DNA from: Terriglobia bacterium
Lineage (GTDB): Bacteria > Acidobacteriota > Terriglobia > Acidiferrales > UBA7541
DNA: 64,000 nucleotides
Direction: 5' to 3'
Assembly: GCA_020073605.1 (NCBI GenBank)
Contig: JAIQEW010000001.1
Coordinates: 124,001-188,000 of the forward strand
A model generated the notes under the pieces. That model had not been told where the DNA came from, made no database searches, and was given only the letters and a program-made list of their open reading frames with translations. This document shows positions 59,365-64,000 of this stretch, in pieces; the first letter of the stretch is position 1; every line of letters begins with the position of its first letter. The translations under genes and the position numbers were made by a program.

Positions 59365-59519
59365 CGCCGGCATGCGCGCTGGATGTGGTGCGCGGCGCGC
59401 GACCGAATTGTGCACCGAAACAACCGTCGTTCGACAGGGTCTCGAAGATCACTTGAAGAAGATTGCTGGACCGGGAGCGGAAGCTCGGCGGGTACAGCGA
59501 TAAAAGGAGAAGAGTTGCA

Positions 59520-60905
59520 ATGAGGAGAGAAACTCGCAAGCCGTACTTCGGCATCAGTCTGGCAGTCAGCTCGTTGATCGCACTTTTGTTTGCGGTGGGG
59601 CTTCGGGTGCCCACGGCGCGCGCAGTGCCAAGCTATTCGCGCCAGACGGGCTTCCCGTGCATTTCCTGCCACACAACCCCGCCGGAGCTCACTCCGCTCG
59701 GACGGACATTCAAGCTCAACGGATATACCATCACCGGTATGCCCGTGACGAAAGCGGAGAAAACCTCCAGGGAGGCAGGGCTCAACATCCTTCAAAACCT
59801 CCCGCTCTCGGTCTTCTTCGAGACATCATATACGCAGACCAACAAGGCTGTGCCGGGCACGCAGAATGCCAGCTTCGAGTTTCCGCAGGACGTGTCTCTC
59901 TTCATCGCTGGAGCATGGGCTACGCACCTGGGGAGCTTCGTCCAGTTCACCTACGATACCCAGGACGACCACTTCAGTTGGGACCTGACCGACATTCGCT
60001 ACTCCAATTCGAGGAAGTTGTTTGGCAAGAGCTTCGTGTACGGTCTCAACCTCAACAACGCACCGGGCGTCGAAGATCTCTGGCATTCCACGCCCACATG
60101 GGGCTATCCGTTCATCGCGGACGATCAGTCAGCCACACCCGCAGCTGCGACCATAGTCGACGGCACCCTTGCAACGGACGTCGCTGGGTTCGGCGGATAC
60201 GGTATGTGGAATGACCACCTGTATTTCGCCACAACGATGTATCGCTCCGAGCATATCGGTTTTGGCCAGCCGAACGATATCAACCAGCAAGCTGCCGCGT
60301 TCAACATCCATGGCCTCGCGCCCTACTGGCGTGTCGCATGGCAACAATCGTGGACCAACAACTACCTGATGGTCGGCGGCTACGGAATGTTCATGAGGTC
60401 GACCCCAGGCGGCGTCGTCGGCCCCTCGAACGGCACCGGCGGCACGCTCACCGACAATTACACGGACGTCGCAGCGGATTTCCAATACGACCGCACGATT
60501 CCGAAATTCCACAATGACGTCCTGTCGCTCCGCGGGACTTACATTCACGAGAACTCGTCGCTGAATGCAAGCGCCTGCGACTGCGAGGGCTTCGGACTCG
60601 CGGACTTCAGCCGGCATCATCTGAACACCGTGAAGGCGAACGCCGAGTATCATTTCGGCGACCGCTATACCGGCGCTTTCGGCTGGTTCAATACGAGCGG
60701 CACGACGGATAACACGCTCTACGGCGGCAGCCCGAACAGCAGCGGGTATCTCCTGAATGTATCCTGGTGGCCTGTGCAGAATATCGATCTCGCTGCGCAG
60801 TACACGGGATACTTCAAGTTCGACGGCGTTACGAAGGGCATCGACGGCGGACGAAGCGCGTCGGACAACAACACGTTGTATATTCTCGCGCGGTTCGTGT
60901 TCTGA
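59520..60905 (+). CDS. Outer-membrane porin-cytochrome c fusion (Cyc2-like)
   Basis: The 461-residue protein has a signal peptide (residues ~1-35), one c-type heme site C47-I-S-C-H51 in the context YSRQTGFPCISCHTTPPELT, then about 400 residues of alternating amphipathic beta strands ending in a C-terminal Phe (ILARFVF), as in outer-membrane barrels. This is the plan of Cyc2-type fused cytochrome-porins, where one heme plugs a barrel and moves electrons across the outer membrane. Many family members are of unknown function, so iron oxidation is not claimed. ATG 59520 has AAGGAGA upstream. The next gene is a blue-copper protein. Confidence 0.75.
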   Translation: MRRETRKPYFGISLAVSSLIALLFAVGLRVPTARAVPSYSRQTGFPCISCHTTPPELTPLGRTFKLNGYTITGMPVTKAEKTSREAGLNILQNLPLSVFFETSYTQTNKAVPGTQNASFEFPQDVSLFIAGAWATHLGSFVQFTYDTQDDHFSWDLTDIRYSNSRKLFGKSFVYGLNLNNAPGVEDLWHSTPTWGYPFIADDQSATPAAATIVDGTLATDVAGFGGYGMWNDHLYFATTMYRSEHIGFGQPNDINQQAAAFNIHGLAPYWRVAWQQSWTNNYLMVGGYGMFMRSTPGGVVGPSNGTGGTLTDNYTDVAADFQYDRTIPKFHNDVLSLRGTYIHENSSLNASACDCEGFGLADFSRHHLNTVKANAEYHFGDRYTGAFGWFNTSGTTDNTLYGGSPNSSGYLLNVSWWPVQNIDLAAQYTGYFKFDGVTKGIDGGRSASDNNTLYILARFVF

Positions 60906-60921
60906 GGCCGGGGGTTTGCAA

Positions 60922-61061
60922 CGACGGGGACGAGGCCCGTCGCCGAGTCACAGCTTCCGGCCATAAGGCTAGGATCGGAGCTGGGCAAACGACGGGCCTC
61001 CGTCCGAAGAAGTCGGTGAGCGGTTTCGATAGCTGGCCCGAGACGCGCGGTTTCGCTCGGG
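60922..61061 (+). ncRNA. Structured leader RNA candidate before the cupredoxin gene
   Basis: GAGGCCCGTCG (60932-60942) pairs perfectly with CGACGGGCCTC (60990-61000), enclosing a nested stem CAGCT(T)CCG / CGGAGCTG (60951-60959 with 60976-60983) and a GCC-ATAA-GGC hairpin. The 5' arm can also pair with CGACGGG at 60922-60928, so two exclusive folds exist. CCCGAG/CTCGGG (61037-61061) forms a last hairpin just before the ribosome-binding site. No known riboswitch family was matched; this is a candidate based on base pairing only. Confidence 0.4.
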
Positions 61062-61082
61062 AACTTAGGAAAAGGAGCAGAG

Positions 61083-61856
61083 ATGACGACGAAATTCAGA
61101 ACAGCATACATGACCTTGGGAGTGACGCTGCTGTTGGCTGGCGTGAGCATCGGAATGAACGCGCGAGCGGGAGCAGCCGGGCCGCGGGCACGACAGGCCG
61201 GCGCAACAGCATCGGGCCAGGGAAACATTGCGGGCAGGGTGAACTTTAGCGGGAAGCCGCCGCAACTTCGCCCGATTGTGATGACCACTGATCCGGTCTG
61301 CGCGTCCGCGCAGGATGGGACTGTGCTGCCGGAAGACGGCCGTGTGAATGCGAACGGCACGCTACCGAACGCCTTCGTTTACATCTCGAAGGGCAGCGGC
61401 AATCTCTCTCTGCAGGCGCCGTCAAGCACCGTGACGATGACGCAGAAGGGATGCAGCTACGTGCCGCACGTGCTCGGAATCCAGGTTGGGCAGCGGCTCG
61501 TGGTGGATTCGGAGGACCCGACGACCCACAACGTTCACGTCACGCCGAAAGCCGGACGCGACTGGAACGTGAGCCAGCAGCCGGGCTCGGAGCCGGTCGG
61601 GACGAAGTTCGCCAACGCCGAGATCATGGTCCCGGTGCACTGCAACGTCCATCCATGGATGCGGGCATACATCGGGGTCGTGACCAACCCGTATTTCGCG
61701 GTCACGGGAACGGACGGCAGCTTCACGATCAAGGGCGTTCCGCCGGGCGATTACACGCTGTCGATCTGGACGGCGACGTTCGGCACGCAAGAGCATCAAG
61801 TGACCGTCCGCGCGGGCGAAACCGCGACGGCCGACTTCACGTTTGAGAGCAAGTAA
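61083..61856 (+). CDS. Secreted blue-copper (cupredoxin-like) protein with carboxypeptidase-regulatory-like domain
   Basis: The 257-residue protein has a signal peptide (residues ~1-32), a beta region (NIAGRVNFSGKPP), and a plastocyanin-like core: first His in THNVHV (149-152), then VHCNVHPWM with C187, H190 and M193, the type I copper loop C-x2-H-x2-M. Residues ~205-257 form a carboxypeptidase regulatory-like beta domain (GSFTIKGVPPGDYTLSI). It should carry one electron in the periplasm or at the surface. AGGAAAAGGAG precedes the ATG. It follows the porin-cytochrome gene by 177 bases and may accept its electrons, like rusticyanin with Cyc2 (inference). Confidence 0.82.
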   Translation: MTTKFRTAYMTLGVTLLLAGVSIGMNARAGAAGPRARQAGATASGQGNIAGRVNFSGKPPQLRPIVMTTDPVCASAQDGTVLPEDGRVNANGTLPNAFVYISKGSGNLSLQAPSSTVTMTQKGCSYVPHVLGIQVGQRLVVDSEDPTTHNVHVTPKAGRDWNVSQQPGSEPVGTKFANAEIMVPVHCNVHPWMRAYIGVVTNPYFAVTGTDGSFTIKGVPPGDYTLSIWTATFGTQEHQVTVRAGETATADFTFESK

Positions 61857-61907: not shown

Positions 61908-63344
61908 ATGAATCCGAAGACTTCAATCCTCTCCCGCCGGCTCGCATGGGTGGTTCTTGCGCTCGCGTGCGCGGGCGGGATTGCGCAGGCGAGGTTCCGG
62001 CAGCCGAGCGAGGAGTATCAGGCGCGGCGAGCCAAGCTGCGCGCAGCGGTCGATGGGCCGGTCGTGATCTTCGGCTACACGGGCCACGAGGACGCGAGCG
62101 AAGTCGCGCTCTTCTTTCAGGAGCCGCACTTCTACTACCTCACAGGACACGACGAGCCCGGTGCGGCGCTGCTGCTGATTCCCGACCCGTCCGCCCTTAA
62201 GCTTGGCGGACAAGCCTCGGAAGACAGCTCCTCCGCCCTTAGCCTTGGCGGACGAGCCTGGGAGAACGGTCCGCGCGAGATTCTTTACCTACAGCCGCGC
62301 GACCCCAAGCAAGAGGTTTGGGAAGGGCCGAAGATCGGTCCGGACGATCCTGGCCTGGCCCAGAAGACCGGCTTCGCGAACGTCGAACCTTTCGCGAACT
62401 TGCGCGGCGAGCTGGCCAAGCTCGCGAAGACTTATCCGAACTTCTACACGCTGCTCCCACCGAAGCAGGAAGAGGGCTATCCGCACCTCACGAATTGGAG
62501 CGCGTGGCTCCGCGACGCCGTCCCGCAGGCGAGCGTGAAAGATATCGCTCCCGCGCTCGACGCGATGCGCCAGGTGAAATCCGCGGGCGAGCTGGCGCTG
62601 ATGCAGAAAGCCATCGACGCGTCGATCGACGCCCAGCTTGACGCGATGAAGACGATGCGCCCGGGACTTTTCGAATACCAGATCGCCGCGCGCATGAAAC
62701 AGATCCACGAATGGGCGGGCTGCGCGCGGGAAGCGTACGCGCCGATCGTGGGCACGGGCTTTAACTCGACGGTGCTGCACTACAGCGCGCTGGACGACGA
62801 AATCAAGGACGGCGATGTGGTCGTCATCGACGTGGGCGGCGAATACGGCGGATACGCGGCGGACATCACGCGGACGCTCCCGGCGAACGGCAAGTTCACG
62901 CCGCGCCAGCGAGAAATTTACGACATCGTCCTCGGCGCACAGAATGCGGCGCTGGCGGCGGTGAAGCCGGGCGCGGTGCTCTTCGGACCGAAGGGCAGCC
63001 TGCAACAGATCGTCACCGATTACATCAACACGCACGGCAAGGACAAAGAGGGTCACTCGCTCGGGAAGTATTATCCGCACGGCGTGAGCCATCATCTGGG
63101 GCTCGACGTGCACGATCCCGGCGACCGCACGCGTCCGCTCGAGCCGGGAATGGTGGTGACGGTCGAGCCTGGAATTTACATTCCGGAAGAGAATCTCGGC
63201 GTGCGCATCGAGGACGATGTGCTCGTCACCAAAGACGGCTACCAGATCCTGACCGCGCGTCTGCCGCGCACCGCCGACGAAATCGAGAAGTTCATGGCCG
63301 AGGGCAGCACGCAACCCGAGAAGCCACAAACCGAAAAACCGTGA
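61908..63344 (+). CDS. Secreted Xaa-Pro aminopeptidase (M24B)
   Basis: The 478-residue protein has a signal peptide (RRLAWVVLALACAGGIAQA), an N-terminal creatinase-like domain, and an M24 pita-bread domain with metal ligands in VVVIDVGGEYGGYAADITR (two Asp), HGVSHHLGLDVHDPG (His), VVTVEPGIYI (Glu) and RIEDDVLV (Glu). It removes N-terminal residues before proline. Residues ~95-118 (SALKLGGQASEDSSSALSLG) come from a tandem DNA repeat and are probably a tolerated insertion in the N-terminal domain. The stop overlaps the next gene's GTG. Confidence 0.92.
   Translation: MNPKTSILSRRLAWVVLALACAGGIAQARFRQPSEEYQARRAKLRAAVDGPVVIFGYTGHEDASEVALFFQEPHFYYLTGHDEPGAALLLIPDPSALKLGGQASEDSSSALSLGGRAWENGPREILYLQPRDPKQEVWEGPKIGPDDPGLAQKTGFANVEPFANLRGELAKLAKTYPNFYTLLPPKQEEGYPHLTNWSAWLRDAVPQASVKDIAPALDAMRQVKSAGELALMQKAIDASIDAQLDAMKTMRPGLFEYQIAARMKQIHEWAGCAREAYAPIVGTGFNSTVLHYSALDDEIKDGDVVVIDVGGEYGGYAADITRTLPANGKFTPRQREIYDIVLGAQNAALAAVKPGAVLFGPKGSLQQIVTDYINTHGKDKEGHSLGKYYPHGVSHHLGLDVHDPGDRTRPLEPGMVVTVEPGIYIPEENLGVRIEDDVLVTKDGYQILTARLPRTADEIEKFMAEGSTQPEKPQTEKP
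62189..62262. repeat. Tandem 32-base palindromic repeat inside the aminopeptidase gene
   Basis: Two units, (G/C)TCCGCCCTTA.. to ..GGCGGAC(A/G)AGCCT, start at 62189 and 62231 (period 42 bases, 14 codons, in frame). Each unit has inverted arms TCCGCC/GGCGGA, the same arms as the hairpin at 34891-34919. It encodes SALKLGGQASEDSS and SALSLGGRAWENG. Confidence 0.75.
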
Positions 63345-64000
63345 TTGCTCCCGGTGATGTGATTTCATACATGGAGATGTGCCAGGAAGAAGGTGCGACG
63401 CTACAACGCGGTATGAATTTCCGGTTCAAGGGCGGCACCAGCATCATCTTGATGAGTCTTCGAAGAGGCGCGCCGTACGAGGATCGCATTGAAGACAATG
63501 GGAAGGTCCTGATATATGAGGGCCATGATCTTCCTCGTATTGCCAATGGTCCGAATCCCAAGACCCTTGATCAGCCGAGATATCTAACGAACGGTAAGCC
63601 GACTCAAAATGGTTTGTTCTTTGAAGCGGCGATGCGCGCTGAGAGAGGAGATGGACCACCGGAATTGGTGAAAGTTTACGAAAAGATTCATGCAGGTGTG
63701 TGGGCCTTCGACGGCAAGTTCAAACTCGTAGGCGCGCAAGAGGAAATCAGCAACGGGCGGAACGTCTTCAAATTTAGACTAGAGTTGACCGAAGACCAAT
63801 CCGTAGTCGGAAAGACTTTAGAACCGGAGCTGCCGCACAGTCGCTTAATTCCGTCATCCGTCAAGCTGGAAGTGTGGAAGCGAGACGGCGGAAAGTGTGT
63901 TCTCTGCCATTCAAACAAGAACTTACATTTCGACCACGACATTCCGTATTCGCTTGGCGGCTCGTCCCTCACGGCTAAGAATGTGCGGCTTCTATGCGCC
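63341..64000 (+). CDS. SRA-like/HNH endonuclease, 3' end outside window
   Basis: The frame is open from GTG 63341 (overlapping the aminopeptidase stop as GTGA) or ATG 63371 to the window edge, giving about 220 residues. The N-terminal part (RGMNFRFKGGTSIILMSLRR, YEDRIEDNGKVLIYEGHDLP, VKVYEKIHAGVWAFDGKF) resembles SRA-type modified-base-binding domains; the end has VWKRDGGKCVLCHSNKNLHF and DHDIPYSLGGSSLTAKNVRLL, the first part of an HNH nuclease with its CxxC. This is the plan of modification-dependent (type IV-like) restriction enzymes. GC and codon use are clearly lower than upstream, a sign of transfer. Confidence 0.8.
   Translation, partial: MIAPGDVISYMEMCQEEGATLQRGMNFRFKGGTSIILMSLRRGAPYEDRIEDNGKVLIYEGHDLPRIANGPNPKTLDQPRYLTNGKPTQNGLFFEAAMRAERGDGPPELVKVYEKIHAGVWAFDGKFKLVGAQEEISNGRNVFKFRLELTEDQSVVGKTLEPELPHSRLIPSSVKLEVWKRDGGKCVLCHSNKNLHFDHDIPYSLGGSSLTAKNVRLLCA

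Follow-up and report, generated by a model that had tools for sequence, protein, structure and literature searches.

How bacteria of the Acidobacteriota might trade electrons with extracellular iron is a question raised by two adjacent genes of a Terriglobia bacterium (GenBank assembly GCA_020073605.1, contig JAIQEW010000001.1), and the pair itself suggests an answer. The window, by which we mean the whole analysed stretch of 64,000 nucleotides (contig positions 124,001 to 188,000), holds on its + strand gene 1 (59520-60905), encoding a Cyc2-like porin-cytochrome of 461 amino acids (aa), and, after a gap of 177 bp, gene 2 (61083-61856), encoding a predicted secreted, amicyanin-like cupredoxin of 257 aa. 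A previous reading of the letters alone (hereafter the sequence-only reading) had taken the two for an outer-membrane electron-transfer module running inward or outward, and the results reported here support that view. The pair is probably an outer-membrane electron conduit and most likely moves electrons between iron outside the cell and the periplasm; for the source genome, inward flow (Fe(II) oxidation) and outward flow (Fe(III) reduction) appear about equally likely.

In the mechanism that we propose, the gene 1 product would be a porin of 16 strands whose short N-terminal domain bears a single c-type heme, and this heme would exchange electrons with a small redox partner outside the cell, most likely dissolved iron. 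The gene 2 product would be a soluble periplasmic carrier of the amicyanin type that trades electrons with the gene 1 heme and connects it to the inner-membrane chain, perhaps to alternative complex III (ACIII) and/or heme-copper oxidases encoded elsewhere in the genome.

The porin-cytochrome and the cupredoxin

The sequence-only reading had seen in gene 1 a signal-peptide protein with one CISCH heme site and a final Phe, and the 461-aa open reading frame (ORF) has each of these. Residues 1-35 (59520..59624) form, by eye, a hydrophobic signal-peptide-like N-terminus ending in ARA, with a helix at residues 9-28 in the structure model, and lead into the heme domain (residues 36-74, 59625..59741) with the attachment site C47-I-S-C50-H51 (59658..59672). 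Exactly one CxxCH occurs in every protein of the family alignment (68/68 rows), where R41, Q42, T43, C47, C50, H51, P55, L57, G61, R62, F64, K65 and Y69 are invariant; the C-terminal Phe recurs in 84 of 100 family members, which agrees with an outer-membrane protein. Behind the heme domain, where a barrel had been suspected, an AlphaFold2 model made with 68 sequences as input (predicted local distance difference test score (pLDDT) 86.7, predicted template-modelling score 0.82) has 16 predicted strands between residues 96 and 460 (59805..60899). Foldseek searches with this model return mostly 16-strand porins at modest template-modelling (TM) scores (OprO, 0.50 by query), and OprO (4rjw) and OprP (2o4v) are both within the top 50 matches; these are the two porins reported for Cyc2 by Keffer et al. 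(PMC8406198).

Gene 2 contains the C187-x2-H190-x2-M193 that had been read from its translation, and the proposal of a blue-copper partner held with corrections: the protein is a predicted cupredoxin, but it resembles amicyanin and carries an extra domain, and it is no rusticyanin, the blue-copper protein that the sequence-only reading had named as the known partner of Cyc2. Searched against the PDB, a profile built from 14 sequences matches amicyanin (E 1.2e-4) at profile positions 115-204, a numbering that approximates residues 115-204 (61425..61694), while the top-ranking PDB profile matches fall instead on the C-terminal domain, the only part of the protein that Pfam names (PF13620, CarboxypepD_reg, E 1.1e-10, 42.2 bits against a cut-off of 32.3; residues 204-254, 61692..61844). 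Among the Foldseek matches of the gene 2 model (pLDDT 83.6), amicyanin ranks first (TM 0.69 by target length), and nitrite reductase, CuA domains, pseudoazurin and plastocyanin follow closely. The candidate copper ligands H149 (61527..61529) and C187, H190 and M193 of the loop C187-N-V-H190-P-W-M193 (61641..61661) do not vary across 14 rows, nor does H152, and 37 of 40 P0002-like (that is, gene 2-like) ORFs have CxxHxxM, duplicates of the same locus included, the remaining three being weak matches. Profile and model together point to an amicyanin-type cupredoxin with a CarboxypepD_reg domain. Two other identities were tried and rejected. For rusticyanin, TIGR03095 is not among the NCBIfam matches up to E 1, and BLASTP to the rusticyanin of the operon described below (locus L174 of genome G350) gave E 0.046 with the ligand loops unaligned; for AcoP, hhalign gave a probability of 6.8% against the AcoP-like protein of G350, and the gene 2 model finds AcoP 7z3i as a weak Foldseek match (rank 43, probability 0.60).

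P0002-like genes form a multi-copy family, with four in the source genome (3.66 Mb, 30 contigs, 93.6% complete, with one gene 1 match) and one or more in at least 75 of 81 genomes (the source genome and 80 relatives). The other three source-genome copies (L181 on contig C24, L182 on C10 and L183 on C11) have lipoprotein-like starts, and that in L183 (8483-9250, - strand) adjoins, by eye, a nar-like cluster and a major facilitator superfamily transporter. Because these three start like lipoproteins, one of them beside a nar-like cluster, only the window copy looks soluble, and the position of the L183 copy suggests that P0002-like cupredoxins may serve several respiratory modules.

Homology to Cyc2 and conservation of the pair

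The sequence-only reading had judged the heme region to be close to that of Cyc2, from a consensus in which FARQTG stands where gene 1 has YSRQTG; that detail differs, and the relationship extends over the full length of the protein. Rusticyanin was searched for in 369 genomes drawn from the class of a genome with a Thiogranum locus, with one match over the cut-off and 64 more below it, and five rusticyanin-bearing genomes were then searched with the gene 1 family profile. One of the five, G350, matched twice. Its operon (L174) consists of a Cyc2-type gene, which is one of the two family members, followed by AcoP-like, coxB-like, COX1, coxC-like, ctaA-like, ctaB-like and rusticyanin genes, of which COX1 was named by Pfam, AcoP by a PDB match (E 7e-45) and the coxB-, coxC-, ctaA- and ctaB-like genes by eye; the rusticyanin scores 136.4 bits with TIGR03095, below the cut-off of 146.7. 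This is the order reported for Acidihalobacter (PMC10654088), minus cyc1 and coxD, which were not seen. Gene 1 aligns with the G350 Cyc2-type protein over query residues 6-453 (31% identity, E 2e-68), the family profile matches that protein at E 1.2e-127, and NCBIfam matches neither of the two. A quick tree was built from 107 rows (97 family members, the two G350 proteins and eight outgroup rows of FAR[K/R] and FSRK type), and in it the G350 protein falls inside the gene 1 family (ingroup Shimodaira-Hasegawa-like approximate likelihood-ratio support 99), its exact place being unsure because of its long branch (0.92). As judged by these alignments, gene 1 is homologous to a Cyc2-type protein of an iron-oxidation operon, in one such case.

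The two genes recur as a pair in related genomes, a check that the sequence-only reading had proposed. Across the 81 genomes, a P0002-like gene stands no more than 5 kb from at least 35 of the 60 Cyc2-like places, sharing the strand in all 35 cases; chance neighbourhood was rejected as an explanation, the expectation being about 0.5% per locus within 5 kb as calculated from 150 listed matches. Conversely, 39 of the 150 P0002-like genes listed are near a Cyc2-like place and 111 are nowhere near one, so that most P0002-like copies presumably have other jobs. A relative of the same genus, G018, carries a 77% identical copy of gene 1 and then a 69% identical copy of gene 2, by which both are recognizable as conserved genes. 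The pairing also extends to porin-cytochrome groups that resemble gene 1 in the heme region only, and some Cyc2-like loci have a cupredoxin on each side. In L054, L055, L059, L060, L084 and L088 the porin-cytochrome stands between two different cupredoxins, and at four aligned double-cupredoxin loci (L082, L084, L088 and L090, two of which coincide with L060 and L059) identity to the gene 2 protein is 31-34% for the upstream cupredoxin and 48-56% for the downstream one.

Gene 1 itself has matches in 43 of the 81 genomes; in 19 of them a match exceeds 180 bits, and in 24 it stays under 40 bits and mostly spans no more than the heme region. An even draw across the class gave a match at E 1e-60 or better in 43 of 299 genomes, and a scan of named genomes gave at least 575 relatives among 595 stretches, the best 80 of which are in records titled Acidobacteria, Proteobacteria, Bacteroidetes, Gemmatimonadetes, Ignavibacteriales or groups within these. 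A small cytochrome c gene accompanies a tandem pair of family members in one Gemmatimonadetes record (L128:3-3464). The related genomes of L033, L034, L035, L038 and L040 hold another, distant porin-cytochrome group, of FARKY type; a P0002-like gene is near it in the first four and none was seen at L040, and oxidase genes are present as well in L033 and L035.

Neighbours across the family

Neighbouring genes were compared at 100 non-identical full-family loci from the window, related genomes, six plasmid loci and named genomes, after one fragment (L043, below 300 bits) had been removed from 101 rows; the set is uneven, 80 of the 100 loci being the best matches of one scan. The strict rule required a cupredoxin, small cytochrome c or high-potential iron-sulfur protein (HiPIP) within 700 bp, the first two on the same strand, or a Rieske and cytochrome b pair, ACIII or an oxidase within 4 kb. 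By this rule the neighbours were a bc complex (28 loci), a small cytochrome c (27), a cupredoxin (16), ACIII (8), an oxidase (2) and a HiPIP (1), and 74 of the 100 loci had at least one electron-transfer neighbour compared with 9 of 61 control genes. The controls were taken from the window plus ten further loci, several of these picked for holding a cupredoxin or rusticyanin gene, and six of the nine control positives sit in regions so chosen. Looser labels (bc complex 36, cytochrome c 30, cupredoxin 16, ACIII 10 and none 21 of 100) were discarded because some of the genes labelled cytochrome b encode diheme or multiheme cytochromes.

Cupredoxin and small cytochrome c genes occur together at none of the 100 loci (chance 0.004, uncorrected for relatedness); in relatives, a small cytochrome c takes the place of the cupredoxin. 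Since the two never co-occur beside family genes, the gene order looks as if one periplasmic carrier slot were filled by either copper or heme proteins. The cupredoxin state needs at least six changes on the tree, as counted with the looser labels, with rows lacking a labelled neighbour excluded and the rus Cyc2 with AcoP scored as cupredoxin. Pfam and NCBIfam searches on representative neighbours identified Rieske proteins, cytochrome b fused to cytochrome c domains, an ActB-like molybdopterin-type protein, NrfD and three c-type cytochromes, two of which are nearest to PetJ (cytochrome c6), below its cut-off, and the third of which (Caballeronia) is nearest to other families.

Plasmid regions were read from PLSDB gene tables, which are incomplete, and the next listed downstream gene is a c-type cytochrome in six of the seven viewed, two of the six being near-identical copies. 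These six belong to plasmids of Caballeronia, Polymorphobacter, Acidiphilium, Methylocystis and Ideonella and to one Acidithiobacillus record near-identical to that of Acidiphilium; in the seventh, from Paraburkholderia, a c-type cytochrome lies two genes upstream at about 2 kb. The Acidithiobacillus record, a linear plasmid named Acidithiobacillus ferrooxidans (CP084173.1, L067), shares a stretch with identical gene positions with pACRY03 of Acidiphilium cryptum (NC_009469.1, L068), which points to recent transfer or a mixed culture. Acidipila rosea DSM 103428 (L115:6004-10534) has a family member directly before Rieske and cytochrome b genes, the latter fused to several cytochrome c domains (879 aa, four CxxCH), an unusual Rieske/b complex. 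The order porin-cytochrome, Rieske, cytochrome b was seen in many of L098-L125 (Acidobacteriaceae and others), the longest Rieske ORF often overlapping by about 12 bases.

Several observations weigh against the conduit and its kinship with Cyc2. The heme domain is the least certain region of the gene 1 model (means of 53-88 over 10-residue blocks), and Pfam, NCBIfam and the PDB have no entry that covers gene 1, its family profile giving a single chance bacteriocin match in the PDB and a few weak matches in Pfam. Of the rusticyanin-bearing genomes, the other four of five have no family match, including G294, the sole one over the rusticyanin cut-off, whose rus contig (L172) starts, by eye, past the expected cyc2 position. 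No listed cupredoxin is near 25 of the 60 Cyc2-like places, some of which lie at contig ends, and by the strict rule 26 of the 100 family loci are without an electron-transfer neighbour. In the window and its downstream flank no respiratory gene adjoins the pair, and a bc-type cytochrome b was not found in the source genome in a search with one query and no positive control. Finally, the motif reported upstream of the Cyc2 heme site, AxPxFAR[Q/K][T/Y] (Keffer et al., PMC8406198), is altered at two positions in gene 1 (AVPSYSRQT), which is why we call the protein Cyc2-like; across the 68-row alignment PxFAR[Q/K][T/Y] is matched by 34 rows and missed by 30, the window included, while four rows start too late to score.

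The sequence-only reading was right that no oxidase or other cytochrome gene is adjacent. A glycosyltransferase-like gene precedes the pair and an aminopeptidase-P-like gene follows it (both named by eye), and the nearest c-type cytochrome genes seen downstream are about 8 kb off, outside the window, where L184:7909-12914 (about 69,900-74,900 in window numbering) holds two tandem pairs of a diheme cytochrome c and a probable dehydrogenase of the pyrroloquinoline quinone type, by eye. Both genes start with ATG behind a ribosome-binding-like sequence, AGGAG (59505..59509, + strand) before gene 1 and GGAG (61074..61077, + strand) before gene 2. A promoter and terminator scan gave no promoter-like site and one terminator-like site, on the opposite strand, no more than in shuffles. 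An ORF that runs off the window (63341-64000) has a CxxCH, CVLCH, within an apparent HNH-nuclease motif and is probably no heme protein.

Direction of electron flow and known systems

Inward flow is quite conceivable, although we hold back from calling it probable. Dissolved Fe(II) would be oxidized by the porin-cytochrome and its electrons passed by the cupredoxin to an oxidase and also uphill through ACIII, supplementing organotrophic growth. The homology of gene 1 to the rus-operon Cyc2-type protein, the cupredoxin gene that stands next to the Cyc2-type gene in both the window and the rus operon, and three COX1 matches over the cut-off in the source genome all favour it. Against it, no oxidase gene is adjacent and RuBisCO, the single carbon-fixation route covered by the search, was not found in the source genome. 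An amicyanin-type site is expected near +0.25 to +0.3 V, too low for taking electrons from Fe(II) at very low pH.

Outward flow has a similar, tentative standing. A bc complex or ACIII would oxidize quinol and reduce the cupredoxin (cytochrome c in relatives), which would pass electrons through the porin-cytochrome to Fe(III) or another acceptor outside. We regard this as a serious option because quinol-oxidizing complexes adjoin the family, oxidases are few and the genome shows no RuBisCO: bc complexes and ACIII are the commonest neighbours (28 and 8 of 100) and oxidases rare (2 of 100), unlike the rus operon. The source genome has three clear ActC/NrfD-like genes (contigs C7, C8 and C21), and the C7 cluster (L193), with no oxidase gene in the 20 kb viewed, encodes an ActC that shares 73-75% identity with its counterpart next to the Cyc2-like gene of the relative G040; another ActC cluster (L194) is followed by oxidase genes. 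A match to MtrB/PioB (PF11854) is likewise missing from the source genome; PF11854 exceeds its cut-off in 10 of the 81 genomes but in none of the 19 where gene 1 has a strong match (G018, one of these, has a weak match below the cut-off), and from this distribution (0/19 versus 10/62, hypergeometric chance 0.057) we claim no anticorrelation. One family member also stands directly before a c-type cytochrome gene on a plasmid of Acidiphilium cryptum JF-5, a strain that reduces Fe(III) according to a review that cites a proposal of Cyc2 as terminal ferric reductase in Acidithiobacillus ferrooxidans and describes the mechanisms in extreme acidophiles as little known (PMC8790237). However, the Cyc2 proteins tested to date are iron oxidases (PMC8406198), and Fe(II) oxidizers, too, are expected to have complex III or ACIII close to Cyc2, there serving reverse electron flow (PMC8788666, PMC7029218); their ACIII has been reported as little expressed (PMC7029218) and as upregulated (PMC8788666).

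For the family at large, we consider it possible, if somewhat doubtful, that a Cyc2-family branch in Acidobacteria and other bacteria works outward; there a bc complex or ACIII would supply a periplasmic carrier, whether cupredoxin, c6-like cytochrome or HiPIP, and the porin with its one heme would reduce iron outside. It is improbable that the pair is not respiratory at all, with a heme porin for metal sensing, copper or iron handling or uptake and the cupredoxin as its metal-binding companion: the lack of an adjacent respiratory gene in the source genome and the many P0002-like copies far from Cyc2-like matches would fit, but the family-wide neighbours are respiratory and the slot is filled at 27 of 100 loci by small cytochromes c, two of which resemble cytochrome c6.

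A conduit of either direction would belong to a large Cyc2-related set in Acidobacteria, Gemmatimonadetes, Bacteroidetes and Proteobacteria that is tied to quinol-oxidizing complexes and to an exchangeable cupredoxin or cytochrome c. Surveys may miss such members, because 30 of the 64 scoreable rows fail the published motif screen. Cyc2 serves as a marker of iron oxidation, and if members work outward the marker would point in the wrong direction; an outward branch of this kind would offer a stripped-down equivalent of the multiheme Mtr route and would be a candidate for Fe(III) reduction by acidophilic heterotrophs, whose reductases are little known. Judged by titles and abstract openings, the papers listed on Cyc2 with Acidobacteria, iron oxidation, acid mine drainage, cupredoxin clusters or ACIII included none on this pair. 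Homologues of Cyc572 in Acidobacteria have already been mentioned (PMC10654088), and Sideroxydans ES-1 on magnetite makes cupredoxins of unknown role that are clustered with SCO1/SenC and a predicted cytochrome (PMC12016527).

Among known systems, one near counterpart is Cyc2 of Acidithiobacillus, Mariprofundus and Gallionellaceae: gene 1 shares its signal-like start (by eye), its single CxxCH, the PxL that follows (CHTTPPEL in gene 1; 68/68 rows), a short heme domain fused to a 16-strand porin (as modelled) and a length above 365 aa. It differs in its AVPSYSRQT, its amicyanin-type partner and the lack of an oxidase operon around it, and the comparison runs through the G350 Cyc2-type protein, which is not a verified Cyc2. 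The rus operon (cyc2-cyc1-cup-coxBACD-rus) likewise has a cupredoxin gene after its Cyc2-type gene (AcoP in L174, gene 2 here), but gene 2 matches neither rusticyanin nor AcoP convincingly and no cox or cta genes accompany the window pair. With blue copper proteins of the amicyanin and plastocyanin type, gene 2 shares the predicted cupredoxin fold and the C-x2-H-x2-M loop, to which it adds the CarboxypepD_reg domain and a longer N-terminal part, and no methylamine genes were seen in the window. The exchange of plastocyanin and cytochrome c6 is a known carrier swap; it has a parallel here in the mutual exclusion of cytochrome c and cupredoxin and in the two of three scanned neighbour cytochromes nearest to PetJ (below cut-off), although the family's slot adjoins a putative outer-membrane conduit and not a photosystem. 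MtrAB, MtoAB and PioAB would share the presumed role of carrying electrons across the outer membrane, but gene 1, in a genome without an MtrB/PioB match, holds its one heme in the porin's own chain.

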